Part shown: one piece after another, positions 1,557 to 64,000 of the stretch | How the letters are laid out: each line of letters begins with the position of its first letter | How positions within the stretch are numbered: position 1 is the stretch's first letter | Assembly (NCBI GenBank): GCA_016932335.1 | Contig: JAFGCZ010000004.1 | Coordinates: 1-64,000, forward strand | Source: Opitutales bacterium | GTDB taxonomy: Bacteria; Verrucomicrobiota; Verrucomicrobiia; Opitutales; Oceanipulchritudinaceae | Reading direction: 5' to 3' | DNA length: 64,000 nucleotides | The notes under the pieces: generated by a model | Told to the model about the DNA's origin: nothing | The model's input: the letters and a program-made list of their open reading frames with translations, nothing else | Databases searched by the model: none | Translations under genes and position numbers: made by a program

Positions 1557-3035
1557 TTAGATTCGGGCTGTCAGTTCAGCCTTCCAGTTTGCGTAGGCTG
1601 CCTGCAGCGGTTCCTTCATCACATCAACGGGAGAAGTCTTGCCCACTTGTCGAATAGAGCCAAAAGCTTCTTCGCGTGTCTTGTAAATACCGGCACCGAA
1701 GCCGGCACCACGGGCAGCACCGGCGGAACCATCGGTATCCAGCAGATCAATTTCTGCCCCGCTTAAGGTTGCCAGTGTTTCCCGGAAAAAGTCGCAGAGG
1801 AAGAGGTTGGCCTTGCCCGCACGAATATTCTGCGGCACCACACCCATTTCCTTCATAATTTCAATTCCGTAAATAAAGGAGAAGGCGATGCCCTCCTGTG
1901 CCGCACGGCACATGTGGGCCCGATTGTGCCGGTTGAAGTCCAGCCCGGCAAAGGCCGCTCCGATATTGCGGTTTTCCAGCATGCGTTCGGCACCATTGCC
2001 AAAGGGCAGCACGCACAGCCCTTCCGAGCCGGGGGCTACACTGCGGGCCAAATCGTCCATCTCTTTATAGGATACATTGCCCAGCAGGCGGCGCACCCAG
2101 GAATTGAGAATGCCTGTGCCGTTCACGCAAAGGAGTACCCCAAGGCGTGTTTGTTCGCTACTGTGGTTTACGTGGGCAAAGGTATTTACGCGGCTTTGCG
2201 GGTCAAATTTGCGTAGATCGCTTACCCCGTAGACTACTCCTGACGTACCGCCGGTTGCGGCAATATCGCCCGATTCGAAAACATTTAGAGAAAGTGCATT
2301 GTTGGGCTGATCTCCCGCTCTGTAACTGACCGGAATGCCTGCCTTGAGGCCCAGTTCCCGGGCGGCAGCAGCGCACACACTTCCCTGGTGGCCGAAAGTC
2401 GGCACGGTGGGGCACAATTTCTCTTCATCCAATCCATAGTATTCCAGGAGGAACTTGGCCGGTTTTTCCTCGGCAAAGTCCCAGAACATCCCTTCCGAAA
2501 GTCCGGATACCGTTGTTACGGCATCTCCGGTCAGCTTCATGGCGGCAAAATCCCCCGGAAGCATGATCTTATCGATCTTCGCATACAGTTCCGGTTCGTT
2601 GTCTTTAACCCATTTCAGCTTGGATGCCGTAAAGTTGCCGGGGGAATTGAGCAGGTGGCTCAGGCACTTTTCCGCACCCAGATCGGCAAACGCAGCGTTG
2701 CCGATTTCCACGGCTCGGCTGTCGCACCAAATAATGGAAGGGCGTAAAACCTGTTGGTTTTTGTCTACACACACCAAACCGTGCATCTGGTAGGCAATAC
2801 CGATGGCCGCTACCTCTTGGCCGTCAATGCCGCCTTCACGCAGTGCCCGTTTGGTTGCATTGACAATGTGTTGCCACCATTCATTCGGATCCTGTTCGGC
2901 AAAACCGGGCTGCGGAGAGCGGATAATGGCTTCTCCGTCCGGCTCTTGCGCGGACGCTTTGCAGAGTTTGCTCTCTGCATCGACAAGGGATACTTTGATG
3001 GAAGAACTTCCAATATCAATGCCCAATAAATACAT
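1557..3035 (-). CDS. xylB: Xylulokinase
   Basis: FGGY-family sugar kinase that phosphorylates D-xylulose to xylulose 5-phosphate, feeding the pentose phosphate pathway. The N-terminal phosphate-binding loop LGIDIGSSSIKVSL (about residues 4-17), the sugar-site WCDSRA and the C-terminal ATP-site region (GSAGAARGAGFGAG) are all present, and 492 residues is the usual length. It is the first gene of a xylB-xylA pair. A 138-base upstream gap with direct repeats separates it from the AraC-type regulator, which suggests its own regulated promoter. Other FGGY kinases are close relatives, but adjacency to xylA settles the substrate. Confidence 0.95.
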   Translation of the reverse strand: MYLLGIDIGSSSIKVSLVDAESKLCKASAQEPDGEAIIRSPQPGFAEQDPNEWWQHIVNATKRALREGGIDGQEVAAIGIAYQMHGLVCVDKNQQVLRPSIIWCDSRAVEIGNAAFADLGAEKCLSHLLNSPGNFTASKLKWVKDNEPELYAKIDKIMLPGDFAAMKLTGDAVTTVSGLSEGMFWDFAEEKPAKFLLEYYGLDEEKLCPTVPTFGHQGSVCAAAARELGLKAGIPVSYRAGDQPNNALSLNVFESGDIAATGGTSGVVYGVSDLRKFDPQSRVNTFAHVNHSSEQTRLGVLLCVNGTGILNSWVRRLLGNVSYKEMDDLARSVAPGSEGLCVLPFGNGAERMLENRNIGAAFAGLDFNRHNRAHMCRAAQEGIAFSFIYGIEIMKEMGVVPQNIRAGKANLFLCDFFRETLATLSGAEIDLLDTDGSAGAARGAGFGAGIYKTREEAFGSIRQVGKTSPVDVMKEPLQAAYANWKAELTARI

Positions 3036-3106
3036 TGGCTATGTAGGGGGTTAAGGGTAATATGAAGTAGTCTACGGGGATAAGCCTATCTATCTCCGAT
3101 ATAACG

Positions 3107-3166
3107 GCCCATATTATAGCATCTTCAAAATGTCTTTTCCTTCACTATTGCCCCAAAATATAGCAT
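3107..3166 (-). promoter_or_regulatory. Direct repeats upstream of xylBA, candidate AraC-type operator
   Basis: On the minus strand two similar sequences, ATGCTATATTTTGGGGC (3166-3150) and ATGCTATAATATGGGC (3122-3107), lie about 43 bases apart start to start, roughly four helical turns, upstream of the xylB start. AraC-family activators typically bind paired direct repeats, and the neighbouring gene encodes one. Binding is inference; the repeats are seen. Confidence 0.45.
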
Positions 3167-3173
3167 AATTGTC

Positions 3174-4115
3174 TCATGCTATCCGGTGCGTGTATTGATT
3201 TCTGTATTCTGAGGGCGTCAGGTTAATACTTTTTCGGAACTGTCTCGCAAAATAGTTTCCGTCAGAGAATCCACAGGTATATGCAATTTCTGTAATGCAT
3301 TGATCCGTCGTTCTTAAGAGCATCTGAGCTCGCTGCAGACGGATATGGATTAAATAGTCAATGAGCGACTCTCCGGTGGCTTGTTTGAAGAGGCGGAAAA
3401 GGTGGCTGCGGGAGAGGTGGGAGATCTCCGTAAAGTCCTCTACAGTCCACTGGCGAGCATAATCACCCTCCATTGCTGCGATTACTTTACTGACTTTCAA
3501 CAGTGCCTGAGCCTCCACCCGTTCCGTTTGCGCATACTGCCGCGATACGTAAGTAGTCAGCTCCAGCAGCCCGGAAAGCAGAAGCGCCTCAAAGCCCACT
3601 TTTGCCTTGGCCTCTTCCTCCATCATCGTTTCCGTAATCCGCTCCACATTGGCAATCGCTGTTCTATCTAGATGCAGGCGGCTGCTGAACTTGTGGCTGC
3701 GCCGAAAATGTGGCTCAAGGAGAAATACCGCACTGTAGCCTGGTATTTTACGCAACGCATCAAAGGGCAGGGGGAGTTGTTTGGGATCATACATCACATT
3801 TAACAACGTCAACTCTTTGCGCTCCGAGAACCAGTGCACCTGGCTGCCCTGCAGCAAAAATACATCCCCCGGGCTGATCGGAAACGCATCGCCCTCTAGA
3901 TGGTGTTTTCCCTGACCTTCCAATACGATGGCCAGTTCGCTGAAATCGTGGAAATGCGGTGTTTCTGTAAAATCGTTGGGGTGGGCCGCTTTCCCGCTTT
4001 TGTCTGTCCGCACCCGTTTTACGGTGATCGGAAGGCTGTTCTTTTGAAAGTAATACGCACCCAACGCCTGCACCGGCGGCGTTGCTTTCTTTGCCCTGCT
4101 CTTGTTTCCACCCAT
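3174..4115 (-). CDS. AraC-family transcriptional regulator, probable xylose activator
   Basis: The N-terminal half is a cupin-like ligand domain (the PHFHDFSELAIVLEGQGKH region, then PISPGDVFLL). The C-terminal half is a double helix-turn-helix AraC domain (SHLFRLFKQATGESLIDYL, then ITEIAYTCGFSDGNYFARQF). The architecture matches RhaS/MelR-type activators of 280-320 residues rather than the periplasmic-fold E. coli XylR. It lies directly upstream of xylBA on the same strand, so control of xylose use is likely but inferred from position. A sensor of another sugar cannot be excluded. Confidence 0.88.
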   Translation of the reverse strand: MGGNKSRAKKATPPVQALGAYYFQKNSLPITVKRVRTDKSGKAAHPNDFTETPHFHDFSELAIVLEGQGKHHLEGDAFPISPGDVFLLQGSQVHWFSERKELTLLNVMYDPKQLPLPFDALRKIPGYSAVFLLEPHFRRSHKFSSRLHLDRTAIANVERITETMMEEEAKAKVGFEALLLSGLLELTTYVSRQYAQTERVEAQALLKVSKVIAAMEGDYARQWTVEDFTEISHLSRSHLFRLFKQATGESLIDYLIHIRLQRAQMLLRTTDQCITEIAYTCGFSDGNYFARQFRKSINLTPSEYRNQYTHRIA

Positions 4116-52410: not shown

Positions 52411-53460
52411 TTATTTTGCCAGGAACTCGCGCAGTAGGGCGCTCAATTCAGTTTGCTTATCCTCTTCGGCAATCTCCAGGAGACTTTTATCCTGAAATTC
52501 GGGATTTGGGTCTGCTCCGTGCTCCAATAGATAGCGAGTCAGTGAAAGATCGTCTTTGCGGATGGAGAGAATCAACGCGTTGGCGTCATCTTTGGTCTTC
52601 AGGTTCACGTCCGCTCCATGCTTAAGGAGCAATTCTATGACCTCCAGATTGCGGGCTATCACCGCTCCCATCAGCGGAGTCATTTTCTTGTCGATGGTCT
52701 GGTTTACATCAGCTCCCGCGTCCAACAGCAGATGGAGCATTTCTATATTCGTCCCCACACAGGCAGAGCCCAATGCGGTGGTTCCTTTTTTGGAGACCGC
52801 ATTCACGTCGGCTCCCTCCTGCAGTAAATATTTGGCTGCGGGTACACTGTTCGTCACTACCGCCTGCATCAGGCTGGTGTAGCCATTTTTATCCACGGCA
52901 TTGGCTTTGCCCCCATGCTTTCGCAACACTTCGGCAATGTCATCTCTGCCCATCATTACGGCCATCATCAGTGGTGTTTGCATCTGTTTGTCCGCTGCAT
53001 TCACATCCGCTCCGTGCTCCAGCAACAAATTCACCAAAGGCAAATTGCCCGCGGCCACCGCTCCGTGAATGGGCCTGATGTCATTCTTGCCTTTGTAGTC
53101 GGCATTGGCTCCGCGCTCAATCAGCAACTCTGCAGGAGCGTTATCCTGTAGAATACAGGCCAGGCAGAGGGGCGTAACACCTTTTGAGTTTTTGGAATCC
53201 ACCTTGGCCCCGGCATCCAGCAGCAAGGTCATCATCGGCACGTCTCCCTTTATTGTGGCCAGGTGCAGCGGTTGCATCCCCTGATCCTTTTTCTCCAACT
53301 GGCTGGTATCTTTTTCCAGAATGGCTTTGGCATCTGCCAGGTTTCCCGAAAGCACCGCCAGAGGCAGCGAATTTTTAACCGATTCGCTCGGGTCTTTTTC
53401 CGCAAAACAGGTGATTACTGACAGCAGCAGGGCGAAGAATGGAAGAAGTGCCTTTTTCAT
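52411..53460 (-). CDS. Secreted ankyrin-repeat protein
   Basis: A 349-residue protein with a signal peptide (ending TCFAEK, about 21) and about nine ankyrin repeats from residue 30 to 335 (for example GMQPLHLATIKGDVPMMTLL, GVTPLCLACILQDNAPAELL, KMTPLMGAVIARNLEVIELL). Such proteins act as periplasmic binding scaffolds; the partner is unknown. It is transcribed toward the partner-switching operon end. Confidence 0.92.
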   Translation of the reverse strand: MKKALLPFFALLLSVITCFAEKDPSESVKNSLPLAVLSGNLADAKAILEKDTSQLEKKDQGMQPLHLATIKGDVPMMTLLLDAGAKVDSKNSKGVTPLCLACILQDNAPAELLIERGANADYKGKNDIRPIHGAVAAGNLPLVNLLLEHGADVNAADKQMQTPLMMAVMMGRDDIAEVLRKHGGKANAVDKNGYTSLMQAVVTNSVPAAKYLLQEGADVNAVSKKGTTALGSACVGTNIEMLHLLLDAGADVNQTIDKKMTPLMGAVIARNLEVIELLLKHGADVNLKTKDDANALILSIRKDDLSLTRYLLEHGADPNPEFQDKSLLEIAEEDKQTELSALLREFLAK

Positions 53461-53541
53461 CGTTGTATATACTGTAGATGTTGTTTGTGTGATGTTACCT
53501 TCTCTGAAACTTTATTTGTCTTGCATTGTCAATTCCACGAA

Positions 53542-53994
53542 ATGAACACCGGTCAAAAATCTGAAACTGGGCGCATTTTGCTCCTCCTGGCATCTGTTGC
53601 CGTTGGCGCCATTGCCCTCCTTCATGTGGCTATTATTATCGGCGGTGCAAGCTGGTACCGCGCCTTCGGGGCAGGGGAGAAAATGGCCTCTCTGGCAGAG
53701 AGCGGTTCCTTGGTTCCTGCATTGTCTACCATCCCTCTGGTGCTGATCTTTGCCCTCTGGTCGCTCTATGCCTATGCCGCGGCCACCGGCAGATTGCGGC
53801 TTCCCTTTATGCGTTTCGTGCTCTGTGCTATTGCCGCGATTTTCCTGCTCCGCGGCTTTTCCGGTATCCCTGTCTATTTCAGCAACACACAGGCTTATAC
53901 TTCCTTTTTCATCATCTCCACCTCCCTGGCCAGCTTCATCATCGGCCTGCTCTATTTTCTTGGCACATTCTTCCGCCGCAGTGAACTAAAGTGA
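53542..53994 (+). CDS. Four-helix membrane protein of unknown function
   Basis: A 150-residue inner-membrane protein, ATG at 53542 (MNTGQKSETG). Four hydrophobic segments lie at about 12-33, 55-75, 84-103 and 118-140. No family is recognised with confidence; small four-helix membrane proteins of this layout are common. It is divergent from the ankyrin gene. Confidence 0.7.
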   Translation: MNTGQKSETGRILLLLASVAVGAIALLHVAIIIGGASWYRAFGAGEKMASLAESGSLVPALSTIPLVLIFALWSLYAYAAATGRLRLPFMRFVLCAIAAIFLLRGFSGIPVYFSNTQAYTSFFIISTSLASFIIGLLYFLGTFFRRSELK

Positions 53995-54088
53995 TTTTTC
54001 TGATTCTGTTTTATTGTTATTTTGATGTTTTCCTCAACTCCTACAGATTGTTCTATGATCAATCCTGAAAACCGAAAGGAACCCGATT

Positions 54089-54211
54089 ATGAGAACAGAC
54101 AGAGGCACGATTACCGAAACCAATGCATATCGTATACCCGGGTGGCGGTACCTGTACCGACTGTTGCGATTGCACCAGTTGCCCCAACTAGGCGTCTTTC
54201 TTTCGTTTTGA
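54089..54211 (+). CDS. Short reading frame overlapping a Cys-rich frame
   Basis: A 40-residue frame (MRTDRGTITETNAYRIPGWR...) begins eight bases after a good AAGGA site. In another frame, 54123-54191, the DNA encodes MHIVYPGGGTCTDCCDCTSC followed by Pro-Asn and a stop: six Cys in the last 13 residues with codons matching the genome's preference for C-ending triplets. A one-base deletion or +1 shift at CCCGGG (54137-54142) would join MRTDRGTITETNAYRIP to GGGTCTDCCDCTSCPN. So the real product may be a roughly 33-residue Cys-rich peptide. No modification enzyme is adjacent. The alternative is a small RNA. Confidence 0.35.
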   Translation: MRTDRGTITETNAYRIPGWRYLYRLLRLHQLPQLGVFLSF

Positions 54212-54222
54212 AAAATGTTCAT

Positions 54223-54250
54223 GCTCACGAAGCGTGAGCTTTGCTTTTGT
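54223..54250 (+). terminator. Terminator of the short unit
   Basis: A 7-bp stem GCTCACG / CGTGAGC with a 3-base loop, followed by TTTGCTTTTG. It closes the unit that begins near 54050 and shows that the short frame is an independent transcript. Confidence 0.75.
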
Positions 54251-54495
54251 TCTGATTCTGTTTACCGGGGTGCTCTTGCCCTCGCAGAAAATATTGCTGA
54301 TTATTTGGTTAAGTGCTGAATCCTCAAAATATCGATTCTTACGTTATTGTGCTTTTTTGTAACTAAGTTGCGAATTCACTTATCTGAAAACTTTTTCTGG
54401 GTATTTATGATAATGAATTGACTTATTTATATGTTGGTCTAGAAATTAGGCATCAGTTACTACCATTAATACTGAGTAATAAGCCTTAGGTGTAT

Positions 54496-54873
54496 ATGAA
54501 TGAAACACAACTGACTTATGTCACCTGCAAATCGCTTCTTAATCAGGGGTTTGAGGTGAGGTTTCCAGAACCTCCGCCGGAATTGAAAGCAGCCAACGCA
54601 GTTCTCAATCCACCTCCTGTTAATCTTACGCTAAGAGAAGTTACAGAGAAGAACAACGAAGACGTCGAAGGTTTTTCTCTCATTTTCCACAGTAAGGAAA
54701 ATCATCTTTTACCTCAAAACACGTATCAATTGCATAATGATACGTTGGGTTCCATGAATATATTTCTTGTTCCCGTGGGCGAGAAGGTAGATGGAGAGGG
54801 CGCTGACCGTAAGGTGACCGGCTACATCTATCAGTCTATTTTTAATGCTCTTAAAAAGAAAGAGAGGGTATAA
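54496..54873 (+). CDS. DUF6916-like protein of the tail-collar cluster
   Basis: A 125-residue protein; ATG at 54496, with an in-frame GTG six bases earlier. Core features are VNLTLREVTEKN, EGFSLIFHSKENHLLPQNTY and FLVPVGEKVDG, which match the DUF6916 pattern seen next to tail-collar (MdpB-like) genes. Function is unknown. It is followed at once by three collar genes, with which it probably forms an operon. The region is AT-richer than the flanking genes. Confidence 0.75.
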   Translation: MNETQLTYVTCKSLLNQGFEVRFPEPPPELKAANAVLNPPPVNLTLREVTEKNNEDVEGFSLIFHSKENHLLPQNTYQLHNDTLGSMNIFLVPVGEKVDGEGADRKVTGYIYQSIFNALKKKERV

Positions 54874-54875
54874 TT

Positions 54876-55415
54876 ATGGCAGATCCTTTTCTTGGGCAAG
54901 TTCGTCAACTGGGATTCAGTTTTGCTCCTCAGGGGTATGCTAAATGTGATGGAGCAACCCTGACGATTGCGCAAAACACGGCGTTGTATTCGCTTCTTTC
55001 AATAAAGTTCGGTGGAAATGGCACAACAAACTTTTGCTTGCCTGATTTACGCGGTCGTGTGCCCATGTTTTCTGCCAATTATGTTCAGGGAACGGAGCTT
55101 GGCGTGGAGTCAGTAACGCTTACCCAAAACACCATGCCCAGGCATACGCATAGCCTTATGTCGATGCCGAGTTCGGGCGATTTTCCTTTGCCGAGGACGC
55201 TTACTGAGCCCATTCAAAAGAAGGTGTTTGCTCAGTCCGTTTTGGCTTCCGATCAAAGTGCGCAAGCTGTTTACGGTGTTCCACAAAACCTCATTTCACT
55301 CCATCCGAATACCTCTACCTATGTTGGTGGAGATCAGTCTCATAACAACCTTCAGCCCAGTCTGGTGATTAACTTTGTGATCGCGCTGCAGGGCTCTTAC
55401 CCTCAACGGTCGTAG
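54876..55415 (+). CDS. Phage tail-collar domain protein, MdpB-like (first of three)
   Basis: A 179-residue protein with a Tail_Collar domain at the N-terminus (LGQVRQLGFSFAPQGYAKCD, FGGNGTTNFCLPDLRGRVPM, about 3-65), then a His-rich turn MPRHTHSLM and a C-terminus with NNLQPSLVINFVIALQGSYP. The family is related to phage fibre collars and cyanobacterial MdpB; members are surface or fibre-like proteins of unknown role. It starts two bases after the DUF6916-like gene. Confidence 0.88.
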   Translation: MADPFLGQVRQLGFSFAPQGYAKCDGATLTIAQNTALYSLLSIKFGGNGTTNFCLPDLRGRVPMFSANYVQGTELGVESVTLTQNTMPRHTHSLMSMPSSGDFPLPRTLTEPIQKKVFAQSVLASDQSAQAVYGVPQNLISLHPNTSTYVGGDQSHNNLQPSLVINFVIALQGSYPQRS

Positions 55416-55430
55416 AAAGGATTACTTATT

Positions 55431-55961
55431 ATGGATGCTTATGTAGGTGAAATTAGAATGTTTGGCGGTCATTACGCTCCGGTTGGCTGGTTGTTGTGTA
55501 ACGGCCAAATCATGTCGGTTACCACATACTCGCAGTTGTTTTCATTGCTTGGAACCGCCTACGGTGGTGATGGAAGAAGTACATTCGGAATTCCAGATAT
55601 GCGTGGACGGGTTCCTGTTCATTATGGAACTGGTTCCGGCCTTACCGCACGGTCTATGGGGCAGCGCTATGGTTCTGAATATGTTACCTTATCTATAGAT
55701 CAAATTCCTGAGCATTCCCATCCCATGATTGCTTCTACCGATACAGCCTATAGCAACTTGCCGGAGGGTCGTGTGCTTGCCGCTGGCCAAGCAGGTGTTA
55801 TTGAGTTTTATGCAGCAACAACAGATGCATCAAAAGTGGTTTTAATGAATGAAAGCGCAGTATTGGCTACGGGTTCAGGCACTCATCATATCAATGTCAT
55901 GCCTAGCCTTGCCATCAGTTTTATTATTGCAACAACTGGAATATATCCTTCACAATCTTAA
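55431..55961 (+). CDS. Phage tail-collar domain protein, MdpB-like (second)
   Basis: A 176-residue paralogue of its neighbour: GEIRMFGGHYAPVGWLLCNG, YGGDGRSTFGIPDMRGRVPV, IPEHSHPM and INVMPSLAISFIIATTG. It is about 40 percent alike by eye. Spacing to the genes on each side is 15-16 bases with good ribosome-binding sites. Confidence 0.88.
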   Translation: MDAYVGEIRMFGGHYAPVGWLLCNGQIMSVTTYSQLFSLLGTAYGGDGRSTFGIPDMRGRVPVHYGTGSGLTARSMGQRYGSEYVTLSIDQIPEHSHPMIASTDTAYSNLPEGRVLAAGQAGVIEFYAATTDASKVVLMNESAVLATGSGTHHINVMPSLAISFIIATTGIYPSQS

Positions 55962-55977
55962 TTAGGAGATATCAACT

Positions 55978-56520
55978 ATGTCAGAACCATTTTATGGCGA
56001 AATAAATATCTTCCCTTATTCCTTTGCACCCTATGGTTGGGCGTATTGTGCTGGATCTTATCTTTCTATTGGTCAATTTAGCGCACTGTATGCGGTTATT
56101 GGCACCACTTATGGAGGAAATGGAAGCACGAATTTCCAAATACCTAATCTGCTAGATAAAGTTCCCCTTGGTTGGGGTTCCGCACCGGGCTTAGTGTCCT
56201 GGCAGATTGGTGATTCGGGTGGTTATTCTTCGATCGCTCTTTCTCAAGAGCAGCTGCCGACGCATACTCATGAAGCTATGGCGTCCATGGATACATTAAC
56301 GAATGAATCTGAGCCAACCGCACTGTCTTATCCTGCTTTTATGGATAAGAAAAATGTCAGCACAATCATGGGCTACAAGACGCCGAGTGCGAATTTGGTG
56401 CCCATGAATTCAAATGCACTTTGTGCTTCCGGTTCTGGCTATGCTCACGAAAATCGTCAGCCGGTTCTTTGTATGAATTATTATATTGCTCTTGAAGGCG
56501 TATGGCCCTCCCGTTCATGA
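55978..56520 (+). CDS. Phage tail-collar domain protein, MdpB-like (third)
   Basis: A 180-residue paralogue: GEINIFPYSFAPYGWAYCAG, YGGNGSTNFQIPNLLDKVPL, LPTHTHEAM and ENRQPVLCMNYYIALEG. It ends the set, followed by a terminator. Three collar copies plus DUF6916 is a layout known from many free-living bacteria and is not evidence for a prophage. Confidence 0.88.
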   Translation: MSEPFYGEINIFPYSFAPYGWAYCAGSYLSIGQFSALYAVIGTTYGGNGSTNFQIPNLLDKVPLGWGSAPGLVSWQIGDSGGYSSIALSQEQLPTHTHEAMASMDTLTNESEPTALSYPAFMDKKNVSTIMGYKTPSANLVPMNSNALCASGSGYAHENRQPVLCMNYYIALEGVWPSRS

Positions 56521-57022
56521 TCTGAACCTTATCCGAACTTGCAATGAGCAATGGGTAAAGCACATTGCTTGTTTTAACTCAACGGAGAATAGAATCGAGA
56601 TCCCTTCGTCTGATGATGTGACCACATTTAGCTAATTTGCGATTAGTTGCCTCGTTAAGCATATAAACAACCAGAACGAGTTCTCCCTTTCTCATTTTGG
56701 GAGAACTTTTTTTCTGGCATTGTTTCTTGGAAATATAAAATAAAAATTCCTGTAATTCTGTTGTTCGTAATTCAGATGCTGATAGTTGAGAATCTGCTTT
56801 CTTATCTTGAAGAATTGTTCCTCAAAGGTCTTTTACTTACCGATTCTCTTTAGGCGTTCCCGTTGTTGCAGTTAAAATGATAGTCCAGTTAAGGGCTGAA
56901 CTTCACCGTTTGGTGTCTTTTTTGAGTTTAAACTTTCCTTTTCTTTAATATTGTCTTACCTTGTTCTCGTTTGAAAAGAGTTCGCCTCTTTTCCCGGTGT
57001 AACCTCTAAGGATGGGAATAAC
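56521..57022 (+). other. Intergenic region after the collar cluster
   Basis: About 500 bases with no convincing gene. It holds the collar-operon terminator (56679-56713). The remaining 300 bases are AT-rich and probably contain the promoter for the next module; GATGGGAATAAC before the ATG at 57023 is the likely ribosome-binding region. Confidence 0.5.
56679..56713 (+). terminator. Terminator after the collar cluster
   Basis: Stem AGTTCTCCC / GGGAGAACT with an 11-base loop, followed by seven Ts. Confidence 0.85.
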
Positions 57023-57538
57023 ATGACTACTCTGACGATCAGCAATGCCTTCGCAGATCTGTTTTCTGCTCCTCTTAAAGCTGTTGTTGAGGCCGAAAAA
57101 GCTTACCTCGAAGTCTGGATCCAGAAACTCGAGTTTATCAAAGCAAACTACAGCAGCGACTTAAGCGCAAAGAAGGTGAACCTGCAGGACCTTATCAGCT
57201 TATATGTGCCTGCCGTTTCTCTGGAGGGGAACATTAAAACCTCTCTGACCATGCGTGTGGCCGGTGTTCAGCAGAAAAGCGGATCGCTTTCCGGCGGGCT
57301 GGCCCTTGGCCCAATACACCTTTCCGGTGGCTTTGGCTTTACCTCCAGCCAGACTCAGGAAAGCATTTTTCAGGCATCCACAGAGTTCTTTCTTTCCAAC
57401 AAGGAGTTCAGCCTGAAAGACTACCTTAAGGCGGCCAACATCGAAGCCGCCACACCGGCAGATCTCGATTCCGCTATCAAGCTGCTCAAGGCAGATTTCT
57501 TTACGCCAACCACTGAGGTTGCACCAACGGAAGGATGA
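57023..57538 (+). CDS. Hypothetical protein, DUF2589-like N-terminus
   Basis: A 171-residue soluble protein. The start, FADLFSAPLKAVVEAEKAYLEVWIQKLEFI, resembles the helical opening of DUF2589 proteins; a Gly/Ser-rich middle (SGSLSGGLALGPIHLSGGFGF) suggests beta structure. No enzyme motif is seen. It overlaps the next gene by the TGATG-type junction. Family assignment is tentative. Confidence 0.55.
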   Translation: MTTLTISNAFADLFSAPLKAVVEAEKAYLEVWIQKLEFIKANYSSDLSAKKVNLQDLISLYVPAVSLEGNIKTSLTMRVAGVQQKSGSLSGGLALGPIHLSGGFGFTSSQTQESIFQASTEFFLSNKEFSLKDYLKAANIEAATPADLDSAIKLLKADFFTPTTEVAPTEG

Positions 57539-57543
57539 TGGAT

Positions 57544-57846
57544 ATGCCTGACGAATCAGCCAACGAACCCATTCCCCTGAGCGATGTGTTGCTCACCCTG
57601 CAGCGCGAGCTGCACCGCGTACAACAGGAGGCCTTGCTGGATGCCGACGGAGGCTCTTATGCTCTGATCCGCGAGGATGTCTCCTTCAAAATGCACTTCC
57701 ATTTTACCCCGGTGGCCGCCCAGGGAGAAGGTGAGGACGAATCGGTCGATGCCATCTTGGTTGATGAACTTGGCGTTCATGAGATGACGCTCGAAGGTAA
57801 GATTTCCCCCGATGTAAAAATTGGAGAAAAAGAAAATGGGCAATAA
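57544..57846 (+). CDS. Hypothetical protein (trypco2/DUF2589-cluster-like)
   Basis: A 100-residue acidic protein; the ATG at 57544 is eight bases after AAGGA, better than the two upstream ATGs. PLSDVLLTLQRELHRVQQEA begins a helix, followed by a beta region with FKMHFHFTPVAAQGEGED. Similar small proteins with this shape co-occur with DUF2589-like genes. Function unknown. Confidence 0.5.
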   Translation: MPDESANEPIPLSDVLLTLQRELHRVQQEALLDADGGSYALIREDVSFKMHFHFTPVAAQGEGEDESVDAILVDELGVHEMTLEGKISPDVKIGEKENGQ

Positions 57847-58243
57847 AACGGCAAGAGAGCGCGCACTGTCGCGCCTGAAAAAGGAGGATCGCGATGAGCG
57901 CCTCCGGCAAAAGGCTCAAACCATTGCTGCCCGTTCCGGGGGAACTCAGGAGGAGATCTTGGTCAAAACCGATGCCCTGGTCAGGGGTACCGAACCCCGC
58001 GGCCCTCTGGAAACTTCTGTCGCCAAAGCCTTCGGCGAGATTATCCGCCAGATCCGTGAGGCCACTCAGGAACAGAGAGACGAAGACGGATCTATCCTCC
58101 GGCCGGCGCATAATTCCGCGGTGGATATCCGCCTGGCCTTTCATTCGCTGGACCTGCAGCAGGAGGGCTTTATCTTTAAAAAAGAGCAGAAGCAAAACTC
58201 CATCGAGCTGGAGCTGGCCACCCGCATTCTTCCCGCGGAATAG
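57836..58243 (+). CDS. Hypothetical protein
   Basis: A 135-residue charged protein; ATG at 57836 overlaps the previous gene end by 11 bases. The first half is highly charged and coiled-coil-prone (ARERALSRLKKEDRDERLRQ); the second (LAFHSLDLQQEGFIFKKEQ) is more strand-like. No family recognised. It ends the three-gene module. Confidence 0.55.
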   Translation: MGNKTARERALSRLKKEDRDERLRQKAQTIAARSGGTQEEILVKTDALVRGTEPRGPLETSVAKAFGEIIRQIREATQEQRDEDGSILRPAHNSAVDIRLAFHSLDLQQEGFIFKKEQKQNSIELELATRILPAE

Positions 58244-60535: not shown

Positions 60536-60973
60536 TTATTTGTTTTTAAATATTATCTTAAGCCAATTGCTTAACTTATTTGTCTTTTTATCCCTTGTTT
60601 CTTTATTTCTCTGAACTTCTGATCTTGTAATGTTTTTGCTGTAGAATGCCTCCTTTAGTCTTTTGTCTATCATTCGTCCTTGAGAGATCTCCTTTTTTGA
60701 CCATTTTTGAGCCCATATAACTTTATTATTTCGAATGAAATAGTGTGATTGGCACGGTAAGTTCCAACTGCCGATCGAAGGTGAAAGAGAAACGGTCTCA
60801 CCATCGTAAATTAATTTCCAGTCAGTCGGAGTGATTGGCGTAATAACGTGGCTTCCGCATCCACAACAACATTTATGGCGGGCTGTTCCGTATTCAACAG
60901 ATATATACAGAACACCTTCTTCTATTTCTTGGGGGATGAATTCAACAAACTTATGGATTAGGATCTGATCCAT
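60536..60973 (-). CDS. DUF6527/BubE-like protein of a ubiquitin-like operon
   Basis: A 145-residue protein. The core (about 1-88) matches DUF6527: HKFVEFIPQEIEEGVLYIS, RHKCCCGCGSHVITPITPTD, SLSPSIGSW and PCQSHYFI. Cys 35-37 and 39 plus Cys74, Ser76 and His77 could form a metal or catalytic centre. The C-terminal 50 residues are Lys-rich with an amphipathic end (NWLKIIFKNK). In ubiquitin-like operons this protein is a proposed processing protease (BubE). It overlaps the E1 gene by 23 bases and ends the operon. Confidence 0.85.
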   Translation of the reverse strand: MDQILIHKFVEFIPQEIEEGVLYISVEYGTARHKCCCGCGSHVITPITPTDWKLIYDGETVSLSPSIGSWNLPCQSHYFIRNNKVIWAQKWSKKEISQGRMIDKRLKEAFYSKNITRSEVQRNKETRDKKTNKLSNWLKIIFKNK

Positions 60974-62126
60974 CTAATTGATCCGTGCTAAGGGTGTAAG
61001 TAAGGTTATTTTCATTTTCTTGATTTAAGTAGAAATGCAGTAGCTTTTTCCATTTTACTACAGCAAGAGAAGCGTTAAGGGCATTCAATTCTGCTATTTG
61101 TATATTAGATGAATATACATCTTCTTCTGTGTCTGCAAGAGAGACGTATTTGCCAACATGACCTCGTAGTGCGGGTGTGCTGGTAGTTGTTCTGATTATC
61201 CCCATGAGGCTATCTCCTGTAGTCTGAATTCCCATTCCAACGTCAATAAATGACTTGCTTTTCTTATCTAGATATCTGAATAACTGCCCCTTGATTCCGC
61301 CTTTGTCTACACTTACAAAAATAAAATCGAGATCATCGAGTAAGCTGAAGTTATCTTCTGATAAGTATACGGAATGAGCGACTATTCCTTTGTGCATATT
61401 TGAGTAAATTAATGAGAAGTAATCAACTTTTTTGGGCTTCTCTAACAACGTCTTAAGTGGAGGAGCACCGGGCGCTCGAAAAGCATTGTGCTGACAGAAT
61501 ATATCGCCGTCAAAGAGGTGAATCTCAGCTACTGGTGTCTTGCTTACAAAATCGAGGATGTATGATCCCGTTCCTCCTAAGCCAATAATCCCTATTTTGT
61601 GGTTTTTAAGTTTTTCGTTTATAGCAGCGAAATGTGACCTAGTAGAATTTGTATCATTGTAGTTGAATACCGAACCCTCTTCATTATCCACCACTGGTTT
61701 GAATGTACGTGCGTCCAGCTCAGGGTTGATTGACTTTGCTGGAGCTGAAATGATTTCGATGTAACGAGTCATTTTGTGGTGGTAGTCTCGGTAACCACCT
61801 GAAGGCTTGTTTGAGAAGGATCGGTTGACAACAAGGTTGCTTCCTAGGTTCTGATTCCTCTCGCTATGCCGTATCGATTCGATAGGTGATCCATGCTTAT
61901 TGCATGGATGTTCCCCGATAAAGAAGGCTATGTGGTGACTCGGGCGTAAGGTTTTATTTCCCGAGAGATCCAGAACCGAGACGAGTGAGCCGAACCGAAG
62001 GGATTGATCTGGTCCAACGTATGGTACGGAATCGATAATAAGATGATTATTTAGAACACGAATCTCGTATCCCTCATTTCGGAGCTGCTGAAGGTCGGCG
62101 TTATGACTTATCAGTGGGTGTGACAT
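60951..62126 (-). CDS. E2-like/E1-like (ThiF-family) fusion protein
   Basis: A 391-residue protein. Residues about 1-150 fit a DUF6791-type E2-like domain, with HPCNKHG around Cys75. From about 165 a ThiF/E1 adenylation domain follows: IGIIGLGGTGSYILDF (about 178-193), acidic turn LFDGDIFCQHNAFR (204-217), VSVDKGG (271-277) and FIDVGMGI. It would adenylate the C-terminus of the upstream ubiquitin-like protein with ATP. Only two Cys are present, C75 and C211, limiting candidates for a thioester. Overlaps the multiubiquitin gene by 26 bases. Activity is inferred. Confidence 0.9.
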   Translation of the reverse strand: MSHPLISHNADLQQLRNEGYEIRVLNNHLIIDSVPYVGPDQSLRFGSLVSVLDLSGNKTLRPSHHIAFFIGEHPCNKHGSPIESIRHSERNQNLGSNLVVNRSFSNKPSGGYRDYHHKMTRYIEIISAPAKSINPELDARTFKPVVDNEEGSVFNYNDTNSTRSHFAAINEKLKNHKIGIIGLGGTGSYILDFVSKTPVAEIHLFDGDIFCQHNAFRAPGAPPLKTLLEKPKKVDYFSLIYSNMHKGIVAHSVYLSEDNFSLLDDLDFIFVSVDKGGIKGQLFRYLDKKSKSFIDVGMGIQTTGDSLMGIIRTTTSTPALRGHVGKYVSLADTEEDVYSSNIQIAELNALNASLAVVKWKKLLHFYLNQENENNLTYTLSTDQLDGSDPNP

Positions 62127-62808
62127 TGAAAATCATCCTGTTTTTAATTTTAACGATATCACCATCGGACATAGTGCCCTGAGGATTTTGTTTGGGACCC
62201 CGTTTGTAGCTAATCGTGTAGGCAATTCGTGCGAAATCAGGATTAGGAAACGCCAGTGAGACTACCTCGGTGTAGGTAATCTTTGATTTTGCTACGAGAT
62301 GTTGCTGCCCATTCACGATAATTTCGATTTGTAGTGGGCGAGTGTAGAATACCGGTCCATCCTTAAATTGAATCTTCTCCTCTGAGGAGAGTGCTTCGTC
62401 GTTGGGGGATTCATAGTCTCGATAGATAGAAAGATCTTCATCGATTTCAAAGATCTGAGAGAGCGTCTCAAGCATAAATTCTTCTAAACCTACAATCTCG
62501 AATTTATCGTCAACGCTTAGAGCCAGTTTTGCTGGTTCTTTGCAGTTGGTATGGTCGTTTTGTCTGTTGCTGACTTTGGAGTAAAAGACGTTGCCTTTGG
62601 CTAGGTTTAGTTCGTCGGGATCGCTAACGAGATAGTCCTTCGGTGAAGAATGATCTCGGTAAATTGACTCGTTATCGGCTATCCCCGATAAACTGCGAAG
62701 GAGTGATCCTTCCACTCTTTGGCGAGGCATTATAACGATTTGATCGTTTACTAGAGCAAACCAGCGAGGGTTCGCTTCCTGTTTTGTATTTAGATTTTTA
62801 TTTGGCAT
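62101..62808 (-). CDS. Multiubiquitin (triple beta-grasp) protein
   Basis: A 235-residue protein with three ubiquitin-like segments: about 15-80, 95-158 and 159-235. The first two share SIYRDHSSPKDYLVSD / SIYRDYESPNDEALSS and VFYSKV / VFYTRP. The third matches the multiubiquitin domain: IIVNGQQHLVAKSKITYTEV, YTISYKRGPKQNPQGTMSDGD and IFNVTPTDKS. It ends in TDKS with no Gly-Gly. It is the likely modifier conjugated by the E1/E2 fusion. First gene of the operon, divergent from the sigma-like gene. Confidence 0.92.
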   Translation of the reverse strand: MPNKNLNTKQEANPRWFALVNDQIVIMPRQRVEGSLLRSLSGIADNESIYRDHSSPKDYLVSDPDELNLAKGNVFYSKVSNRQNDHTNCKEPAKLALSVDDKFEIVGLEEFMLETLSQIFEIDEDLSIYRDYESPNDEALSSEEKIQFKDGPVFYTRPLQIEIIVNGQQHLVAKSKITYTEVVSLAFPNPDFARIAYTISYKRGPKQNPQGTMSDGDIVKIKNRMIFNVTPTDKS

Positions 62809-62836
62809 ATACTCACATAGGACTGCAGTATGTGTT

Positions 62837-62874
62837 TTCGCCGAAAAAAATAAAAATAAAAGAAATACGGCGAA
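62837..62874. promoter_or_regulatory. Inverted repeat in the bub/sigma divergent promoter region
   Basis: TTCGCCG (62837-62843) and CGGCGAA (62868-62874) form a perfect 7-bp inverted repeat spaced by an A-rich 24 bases, so centres lie about three helical turns apart. The left arm is part of a near-palindrome TTTTCGCCGAAAA. It lies between the multiubiquitin and sigma-like genes and is a candidate operator for both. Confidence 0.5.
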
Positions 62875-62960
62875 CTTATGGAGTTTAATCCTAAGTGGTA
62901 GTGGAATTGATTTTATCCTTGCTTACGATATGTGATTATTGGATTGTGATTCATTCAAAT

Positions 62961-63581
62961 ATGAAATCAGACAATATAGACTTTGATGTTCTATTTGCTC
63001 ATAGGGGCGGCTTTGCCATGGCGTATGGGCAGCTCTATGCATATGCGATTGTAGTTATCAGAAAAAGGTCAGGCTTAACGAGAAATGGTAGAAAAGTCGC
63101 TGAATTGGACGCTAAGGAACTCGTGGCTCATGCTCTATCTCGTCTTGTTGAATTGGAGTTATTTGATGATGGAGAGGCGGTCTATTGTCAATTGAGGCGC
63201 TTTATTGATAATTATGTTCATACGCTACAAAAGAGGACTGCAGAGCTTGTTCTTGTTCCAGTGAGTACTGGCAGCTATGAGGAAGATTCAAGGATTCTTC
63301 CTGAGCTAGAAGATATCAATGGAACGATCCCGTCTGATGATGTCGAAAGGAGAGAGGAAAATGATTTATATAGAGATATTCTTGAATCTCTCAAAGCAAG
63401 CTATCCGAGTAATGGAGTGGAACAGCGTTATATTGATCTCGTTTTAGAGGGGTGGTCGGGACGTAATGAGCTTTCTGAGCTCTTGGAAATCAGACCTTCA
63501 CAGTATGACGTTTTATACAAAAAAGTAAGCCGAGCTGCTGTAGCTGCAAAACAAAGATTTTTACAAAGGAAGGCATTATGA
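62961..63581 (+). CDS. Sigma-70-like RNA polymerase sigma factor
   Basis: A 206-residue protein starting at the ATG at 62961 (MKSDNIDFDVLF). The middle (about 40-100) resembles region 2 (DAKELVAHALSRLVELELFD); the end (about 150-205) resembles region 4, with a helix-turn-helix (GRNELSELLEIRPSQYDVLYKK). It is diverged and not a standard ECF. It lies back to back with the ubiquitin-like operon and overlaps the next gene by four bases. Control of the operon is inferred. Confidence 0.7.
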   Translation: MKSDNIDFDVLFAHRGGFAMAYGQLYAYAIVVIRKRSGLTRNGRKVAELDAKELVAHALSRLVELELFDDGEAVYCQLRRFIDNYVHTLQKRTAELVLVPVSTGSYEEDSRILPELEDINGTIPSDDVERREENDLYRDILESLKASYPSNGVEQRYIDLVLEGWSGRNELSELLEIRPSQYDVLYKKVSRAAVAAKQRFLQRKAL

Positions 63582-63979
63582 AGTCTACCTATAAATATAC
63601 AAATGCAATGAACCGTTTGGTTGAGGGTGCGTTTCCTACGGAGGCGGACATCGATGCCATGGATCCCCGTGAGTTGGCTGAATTCTTGTCTGAAAATGGT
63701 GTTGATTTACGCTGCTTTGAGTCCGAAGTCTCTTCCATTAAGTCTAAATTCGAGGGGAAGTTAAATTTTGAAAGAGCTCGAGAGAAACGATTAAGATCAA
63801 CCAAGGGTGAGCGCGTTGTGGATCTTTCATCTATGTCTAAAGAACAGATCCTAGAAGATTTAGTTGGAATATATGGATGTATTGAGAATATTCCTCTAGC
63901 AGCTAGAAATTTTCGGGATTTTAATCGCTCGGAATTGGAAAGCCTTTATCGGGATTTGGTTTTGAAAAAATCTGAATAG
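63578..63979 (+). CDS. Hypothetical partner of the sigma-like gene
   Basis: A 133-residue charged, helical protein (ADIDAMDPRELAEFLSENGV; SSMSKEQILEDLVGIYGCIE). No family is recognised. It overlaps the sigma-like gene by ATGA, so it may be an anti-sigma or chaperone partner. In similar modules a metallopeptidase often follows, but the window ends. Confidence 0.6.
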   Translation: MKSTYKYTNAMNRLVEGAFPTEADIDAMDPRELAEFLSENGVDLRCFESEVSSIKSKFEGKLNFERAREKRLRSTKGERVVDLSSMSKEQILEDLVGIYGCIENIPLAARNFRDFNRSELESLYRDLVLKKSE

Positions 63980-63982
63980 CAA

Positions 63983-64000
63983 ATGGAGATGCGAGAGCCT
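63983..64000 (+). CDS. Possible start of a further gene, cut by the window end
   Basis: ATG GAG ATG CGA GAG CCT begins three bases after the stop of the previous gene and stays open to the edge. It could be the third gene of the sigma module. Only six codons are seen, so the call is weak. Confidence 0.25.

Follow-up and report, generated by a model that had tools for sequence, protein, structure and literature searches.

The question addressed here is how bacteria hold lethal anti-phage operons off and then turn them on. The controllers of the cyclic-oligonucleotide-based antiphage signalling system (CBASS), of bacterial ubiquitin-like (Bub) operons and of other immune operons that consist of CapH and CapP were reportedly described by Lau et al. 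2022 (cited in PMC13373217). In envelope stress, regulated proteolysis through membrane cascades removes an anti-sigma factor and frees an extracytoplasmic function (ECF) sigma factor. CapP bound to single-stranded DNA cleaves CapH, the repressor of immune operons (PMC13373217, PMC10904395), and the related PprI is also activated by single-stranded DNA (PMC10904395). According to PMC13373217, CapW or CapH and CapP accompany 219 of 544 Bub operons, and CapK and CapS accompany 59. Here we describe a locus of an Opitutales bacterium in which a multiubiquitin operon lies divergent from the genes of a sigma-like protein, a small protein and a CapP-type protease. The window, that is, the whole stretch of 64,000 nucleotides analysed, comprises bases 1-64000 of the 73,036-base contig JAFGCZ010000004.1 (C8), in an assembly of 2.1 Mb that is 80% complete.

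The locus resembles the CapH and CapP controllers in having a CapP-type ImmA/IrrE protease and an adjoining regulator gene by the promoter of an immune or Bub operon. It differs from them in that a sigma factor and an unrelated small protein replace the helix-turn-helix (HTH) repressor CapH, and no HTH family of Pfam, NCBIfam or PADLOC was found in the window's two CapP partner proteins; with this replacement, the operon would be activated, with positive feedback, and not derepressed. The logic is the same as that of anti-sigma proteolysis in envelope stress, with the difference that the protease is here a soluble M78 enzyme, predicted to sense single-stranded DNA. CapK and CapS likewise form a two-gene controller that lies by Bub and CBASS operons and resembles anti-sigma machinery, but as described in PMC13373217 they are a kinase and a STAS-domain repressor, with neither a sigma factor nor a protease. 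PprI/IrrE and DdrO of Deinococcus share the protease superfamily and the activation by single-stranded DNA, although that protease cuts the repressor of a DNA-damage response and not the regulator of an adjacent immune operon, according to PMC10904395.

The reading that we favour, and consider rather likely, is that a Bub-like operon was acquired here and is controlled by a three-gene switch that is based on a sigma factor and triggered by damage. Gene order and recurrence, the sigma and CapP families, the duplicated elements and the adjoining operons are established from the sequences. The ubiquitin-like operon and CapP are already known, and the replacement of CapH by the sigma factor and the small protein, the twin promoters and the spread across operons appear to be new. 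Among the listed matches of the open-licence literature (titles and abstract openings), none names a controller of CBASS, Bub or Pycsar (pyrimidine cyclase system for antiphage resistance) operons that is based on a sigma factor; the primary Bub and CapH/CapP papers lie outside this scope, and a mention there is possible.

Protein families of the divergent cassette

An earlier, sequence-only reading of the window had recognised the sigma-like gene and its small partner as a divergent module. Both are present, in genes that overlap by four bases, and the central part of the module, a third gene, had been overlooked: it begins three bases past the small gene and has only 63983..64000 inside the window (Table 1). 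By sequence, its product is a CapP-type ImmA/IrrE protease. The protein matches the solved CapP 7t5t (phmmer, 3e-22) over residues 19-259 of 259, including the C-terminal part, as well as PADLOC capP (1.3e-55) and Peptidase_M78 (8.8e-18), and a profile of 12 proteases matches the solved CapP at 2.9e-56. Residues H82, E83, G85 and H86 (HExxH zinc motif) and the downstream E113 are invariant in the 12 sequences.

Searched alone, neither the sigma-like nor the small protein of the window gave a Pfam hit above the cut-off or any hit in NCBIfam or PADLOC, and both were recognised only through relatives (numbered loci, L, in what follows). A profile of 15 sigma-like sequences matches ECF SigH (the best, 2.5e-6), SigE, FliA and other PDB sigma factors over most of its length, and Pfam Sigma70_r2 is above the cut-off for the proteins of L053 and L073. 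The window protein and its L074 counterpart share 29% identity across 196 aa (2e-17), in an alignment that starts at residue 1; left out of the profile, the window protein scores 9.2 bits (best of 500 shuffles 5.5), and the L074 protein, left out in turn, scores 65.3 bits. On these sequence comparisons, the family is one of ECF-like sigma factors.

The small proteins form one family with a LAARN-like C-terminal motif, in which the window member scores 38.7 bits against a profile built from the 14 others (the highest of 500 shuffles reaching 11.6). The structural model is all-helical and of low confidence (predicted template modelling score, pTM, 0.36). The small gene is present in all 18 cassettes described below, and it overlaps the sigma gene by 4 bases in eight of the 13 cassettes counted and by 14-47 in the others. 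Because of this overlap and constant linkage, we regard the small protein as a fairly likely anti-sigma factor.

Recurrence and partner operons

Relatives were gathered by similarity to the E1-like protein of the operon (34 loci) and by Multi_ubiq (10 operons in 9 of the 387 genomes of the window's phylum). The sigma, small and CapP genes, in that order, were found at 18 loci in at least three phyla, and 17 of these cassettes are complete, L050 stopping at a contig edge before the protease. The cassette lies opposite the operon in the window, L037 (Herminiimonas), L039 (Planctomycetales), L045 (Methylotenera), L048, L050, L052, L053, L054 and L055. Conservation of the sigma gene beside related operons, on which the sequence-only reading depended, was found in seven of the ten Multi_ubiq operons of the phylum, always in the same divergent place, and in three of the 34 E1 loci elsewhere.

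Other arrangements occupy the place of the cassette in part of the gathered loci. An HTH protein with an M78 protease stands there in L017, L020, L043 and L049, the two being fused in L049, and L032 resembles these loci with the protease farther off. Weaker protease matches lie upstream in L014, L025, L035 and L038, and none of these parts was seen in the remaining E1 loci. In 11 of the 34 (L016, L018, L022, L023, L024, L027, L029, L030, L031, L034 and L047), a co-directional protein of 1131-1157 aa is encoded upstream of the multiubiquitin operon, and all eleven match the protease profile, some weakly. The single example checked (L016:3789-7190) joins an M78 peptidase, UvrD helicase and PD-(D/E)XK nuclease in that order, and has the look of a CapP-like protease merged with a DNA-end processor.

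Searches with the small-protein profile reached further cassettes. In the window's phylum it matched nine places in 8 of 387 genomes, all nine of them cassettes, of which seven were seeds of the profile and two, L073 and L074, were new. In the order of genome G410, 14 of 399 genomes matched; three of the matches lie in cassettes (L037, L093 and L094), and the other 11 were dropped as spurious, since they lie within long frames of 421-917 aa. Two of the 294 genomes in the phylum of G412 matched (L039 and L095), as did three of the 34 genomes of the E1 genes, every time within a cassette. Only an already known cassette matched among the 219 genomes in the class of G418, and none of the 240 in the class of G397 did, a negative that carries little weight, especially as L096-L098 lie on plasmids of Alphaproteobacteria.

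Among plasmids, tblastn with the window sigma protein gave no match, and gene order was therefore used to reach relatives. The L045 sigma protein led to L096 (Novosphingobium humi), whose own sigma protein matched 10 plasmid records including itself; four of the others were opened, and the five unopened are all from Cereibacter sphaeroides. Two of those opened were counted as cassettes, L097 (plasmid pDE of C. sphaeroides 2.4.1) and L098 (Fuscovulum). L099 was not counted, its small protein missing the profile (10.2 bits, best shuffle 12.3), nor was L100, which is without CapP. At L100 (2638-6303, on a Sphingomonas plasmid), a related sigma gene with a 79-residue partner faces away from the gene of an S8 serine peptidase, and genes for ImuA, DNA polymerase Y and an error-prone polymerase lie near it; this may be a sigma module that works with a different protease. 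The search with P0002 gave no match in phages, and the L096 sigma protein had no relative in viral contigs.

The partners of the 18 cassettes are multiubiquitin-type operons in 12 cases, CBASS in three, Pycsar in one and neither in two. The multiubiquitin-type share is biased upward, since most of the twelve were located through that operon; among the eight cassettes not found via ubiquitin genes (L073, L074 and L093-L098), two partners are multiubiquitin-type (L074 and L093), three CBASS, one Pycsar and two neither. An E1 of the DUF6791 type lies beside the cassette in the window, L037, L039, L045, L048, L050 and L093, and one of another type in L052, L053, L054 and L055 (the last read by eye). 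The L074 operon encodes a ThiF protein and a modifier that Pfam does not detect; the first two repeats of this modifier (2940-3629) are 39% identical to those of the window modifier (62101-62808), and the last modifier domain and the E1 gene differ in type between the two loci, so that the promoter-proximal part of the modifier seems to travel with the switch and the distal part to be swapped. The CBASS operons encode a DncV-like cyclase, an E2 and a NucC effector in L073, a SMODS cyclase and a SLATT effector in L094, and a cyclase, an E2 and a SAVED-HNH effector in L097; the Pycsar operon of L096 encodes PycC, an E2-domain protein and PycTIR. The sigma module is not dedicated to the ubiquitin-like operon, as had been proposed from the window alone, because the same cassette adjoins CBASS and Pycsar operons. 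At L095 (6534-7052, genome G1024), the cassette faces a single HTH protein.

Promoter-like elements and the proposed switch

In the divergent gap of the window, the element CGGCGAA-N14-TCCTA occurs once in each direction, with 21 bases from start to start in both. The 2.1 Mb assembly contains only three exact copies, namely the window pair and one inside a 777-residue frame that resembles RNase R. This rarity is supporting evidence only, as the element was derived from the very region it serves to explain.

To compare the loci, we used a test of whether the two outward strands of a divergent region share two exact blocks at promoter-like spacing, scored against dinucleotide shuffles (n=400) with a cut-off of 5%. 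Twelve of the 18 cassette regions were at 5% or better; the shuffles at or above the observed score were 16 for the window, 0 for L037, 1 for L045, 1 for L048, 0 for L050, 5 for L053, 3 for L073, 0 for L074, 6 for L094, 2 for L096, 1 for L097 and 1 for L098. Nothing was found in the trimmed regions of L052-L054, which were retested in a longer one, where L053 alone passed. The count is 11/17 without L094 and 10/17 when the longer region of L053 is also left out. By comparison, 2 of 22 generic divergent regions pass (Fisher 0.0004 for 11/17 vs 2/22), and so does one of five regions with other arrangements (L014, L017, L020, L043 and L049), this one being a compact palindrome in L020.

The choice of this test was not blind, because the two-block test was loosened after the first results. 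A 28-base identity test had been abandoned as too blunt, only L050, L052, L053 and L054 standing out (0-1 of 300 shuffles). In the first two-block version, the counts out of 300 were 9 for the window, 15 for L039, 0 for L045, 1 for L048, 0 for L050, 0 for L053, 9 for L054 and 12 for L055, and nothing was obtained for L037, for L052 or for any of five control regions; the two spacers were then allowed to differ by one base and the regions were trimmed.

The blocks point outward in both directions and are mostly 18-23 bases apart from start to start (16 in L048). The motifs vary by lineage and match within each locus: CGTCCG...CAGTC in L037 and L045, with the related GCGTCCG...AGTC in L039, ATGTCCG...CCGCATA in L097 and L098, and TGTAACG in L053 and L054. 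A motif that is variable among lineages yet matched within a locus is the trace expected of an autoregulated alternative sigma factor, and the pattern in the window and across the 12 of 18 loci is that of a putative autoregulated two-block promoter at promoter spacing. The promoter architecture argues for the regulation of the operon by the sigma-like gene, as the sequence-only reading had proposed; we consider this control well supported and quite likely.

In the mechanism that we propose, the ECF-like sigma factor would recognise the near-identical promoters in both directions and transcribe its own genes together with the ubiquitin-like operon, the transcription of its own operon providing positive feedback. 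The small helical protein would keep the sigma factor inactive. Damage or phage replication would expose single-stranded DNA, which is the presumed signal at this locus, and activated CapP would cut the small protein, a step that we hold to be somewhat likely; the sigma factor would then be freed and both promoters would fire. Elsewhere, the same cassette would drive CBASS or Pycsar operons, or an HTH protein and a protease stand in its stead, as in the known pair of CapH and CapP.

Several observations weigh against this reading. The small protein has no known anti-sigma domain, no convincing PDB match and no known fold in the fold search, and its model is weak. The window sigma protein is the most diverged member of its family and by itself has no sigma-family match. 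The cassette is absent from 31 of the 34 E1 loci elsewhere, and no recognised immune operon adjoins it in L095 or L098. Six of the 18 regions fail the two-block test (L039 with 62 shuffles, L055 with 31, L093 with 43, L052 with 202, L054 with 41, and L095 with nothing found), L053 passes only with the region extended into the annotated sigma start, and the L094 repeat resembles a terminator hairpin. The window pair is by itself only modestly significant (16/400 shuffles, and 9/300 in the first version of the test); that first version was passed by L054 and L055 but failed by L037. Finally, PMC13373217 presents Bub operons as putative immune operons for which phage protection is undemonstrated.

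Two alternatives are, in our estimate, equally unlikely. The sigma-like protein could itself be the CapP substrate, a repressor acting on inverted elements in the manner of CapH, with the small protein as an adaptor only; the HTH proteins that take the place of the sigma protein beside an M78 protease in L017, L020, L043 and, fused, in L049 would fit such a role, and the common elements form inverted repeats, like operators. However, most of the length of the family profile aligns with sigma factors, the two outward blocks with their usual spacing are unlike compact palindromes, and the separate small protein, which accompanies every one of the 18 cassettes, would be superfluous. Alternatively, the small protein and CapP could be a toxin-antitoxin-like pair that the sigma factor autoregulates and nothing else, with the adjoining operons as defence-island company. 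Two complete cassettes without a recognised immune operon (L095 and L098), the title 'CapP toxin' of the solved CapP entry and the zeta-toxin gene adjoining the window cassette are in line with this, whereas a divergent partner of multiubiquitin, CBASS or Pycsar type in 16 of the 18 loci, and one element facing the partner operon wherever twin elements are present, speak against it. A third view, in which the cassette has no functional tie to the ubiquitin-like operon and the two merely share an AT-rich island gained by horizontal transfer, is very improbable: the island is bounded in composition and the cassette is missing from those 31 E1 loci, but the cassette holds the same divergent position beside seven of ten Multi_ubiq operons in the phylum, it recurs in at least three phyla and the promoter-like elements match in both directions.

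If the sigma-based switch is real, activation would come with built-in positive feedback and therefore possibly with an all-or-none response, the ubiquitin-like, CBASS and Pycsar pathways would be tied to one damage signal, and every cassette would predict its own promoter motif. The CBASS example on plasmid pDE of the laboratory strain Cereibacter sphaeroides 2.4.1 makes the idea directly testable, and the combination of a sigma factor, a LAARN-motif small protein and CapP would be a search handle for new immune operons. Whether the cassette represents a fourth, as yet unnamed class of controller, a sigma version of the SOS response in which CapP, prompted by single-stranded DNA, destroys a soluble anti-sigma factor so that the freed sigma factor fires the divergent twin promoters with positive feedback, and which moves between Bub, CBASS and Pycsar operons with its own promoter pairs, is in our judgement close to an even question, leaning slightly towards yes.

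The ubiquitin-like operon and its surroundings

The five genes that the sequence-only reading had placed in the window lie where it put them (Table 1), with overlaps of 26 bases (multiubiquitin/E1) and 23 bases (E1/DUF6527) and a divergent gap of 152 bases to the sigma-like gene. The operon proteins have Pfam matches to Multi_ubiq (6.3e-16, third domain only), DUF6791 (9.7e-56), ThiF (1.2e-8) and DUF6527 (1.1e-23).

Table 1. Coordinates of the features of the locus; positions are those of the contig, whose first 64,000 bases are the window.
Feature	Position	Strand	Remarks
DUF6527 protein gene (145 aa)	60536..60973	-	third gene of operon; Pfam PF20137, E 1.1e-23; predicted metal-binding
Fusion of DUF6791 and E1-like ThiF adenylation domain (391 aa)	60951..62126	-	Pfam; NCBIfam NF004805, 544 bits
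Multiubiquitin protein (235 aa)	62101..62808	-	Pfam PF14452, 6.3e-16; C-terminus ...VTPTDKS
Putative sigma-dependent promoter, multiubiquitin operon	62818..62843	-	CGGCGAA-N14-TCCTA
Putative sigma-dependent promoter, sigma/small/CapP genes	62868..62893	+	CGGCGAA-N14-TCCTA
ECF-like sigma factor gene (206 aa)	62961..63581	+	ATG start favoured over GTG 62895
Small helical protein gene (133 aa), candidate anti-sigma	63578..63979	+	family's C-terminal LAARN-like motif
CapP-type ImmA/IrrE (M78) metallopeptidase gene (259 aa, HEIGH motif)	C8:63983-64762	+	crosses window end at 64000

The operon is of a known kind, type 6e, a relative of Bub, because this type is laid out in row 6e of Iyer et al. 2006, including the metal-binding protein (PMC1779556). 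The window operon has the gene content of type 6e/Bub operons, that is, a tandem ubiquitin-like protein (polyUbl), an E1-like adenylation domain and a predicted metal-binding protein, and the fold of its E1 is closest to BubCD. It differs in that its E1 carries DUF6791 where JAB would be, that it lacks a separate E2 gene and that Ser is the last residue of its modifier; no JAB family was found in the three operon proteins in Pfam, NCBIfam or PADLOC searches, and E1 versions in which another domain replaces JAB are described in Iyer et al. 2006 (PMC1779556). All three genes are present in 31 of the 34 loci retrieved by E1 similarity, with no modifier match in L046 and no DUF6527 match in L039 and L043 (DUF6527 relatives in 32/34), and in 32 of the 33 loci with a modifier gene a start codon is so placed as to give an identical 26-base overlap; with such recurrence, the operon is not a chance arrangement. 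The operon may conjugate its modifier to targets, but the E1 part is without a conserved cysteine and the modifier without a Gly-Gly end, as set out below.

In the modifier, which the sequence-only reading had called three-domain, the two N-terminal domains are mutually related repeats (0/2000 shuffles reach their score), and domain 3, the Pfam Multi_ubiq domain at the C-terminus, has no sequence similarity to them. A solved relative is the multi-ubiquitin domain protein 9cd2 (1.2e-14). Of the DUF6791-E1 type, 38 modifiers (the window and 37 relatives) were read to their end, and every one finishes in Ser, without Gly-Gly, mostly as VTxT[DNV][KRQ]S, and this tail is encoded within the overlap with the E1 start (62101-62126 in the window; 32 of the 33 loci counted). 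In other subtypes the last residues are QEG (L052-L054) or GGSS (L074).

The adenylation fold of the E1 protein, which the sequence-only reading had named as a check, is present according to an AlphaFold2 model built from 27 aligned sequences (predicted local distance difference test, pLDDT, 83.8), since its best solved match in Foldseek, among the matches listed, is Citrobacter BubCD (E 4.4e-13), with UBA5, MccB, ThiF and MoeB ranking lower in the best 50 rows. The ThiF part has no conserved cysteine in the alignment of 27 E1 sequences. As to the E2-like part named in the sequence-only reading, Cys75 of DUF6791 is near-invariant (25/27) and in the model follows helices and four strands; a DUF6791 profile matches three Prok-E2_E-type sequences weakly (E 0.048, probability 1.1%).

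Horizontal transfer, which had been proposed for the AT-rich stretch, was assessed from composition alone. The GC content is 40.6% across the six genes, compared with 50.8% for bases 1-58000 and 52-56% for the immediate flanks, and other low-GC stretches of the contig reach 45.5% (53400-57850) and 46.6% (65988-73036). GC at third codon positions (GC3) is 0.28-0.44 in the six genes vs a mean of 0.579 (sd 0.049, lowest 0.442) in 41 other open reading frames of >=200 aa. The composition supports a six-gene island that is foreign by composition, for which acquisition is favoured, not proven.

Just past CapP lies a zeta-toxin gene (PF06414, 7.3e-10), and C8:64813-65846 (L002:9814-10847), at 55-58% GC, holds it and an antitoxin-like neighbour. 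Upstream of the operon, three tandem proteins of 176-180 aa are encoded at 54876-56520 of the window, the first being a phage tail collar protein (Pfam 2.7e-23); two of these shorter tail-like genes have a low GC3 (0.35 and 0.38) and form a second AT-rich patch.

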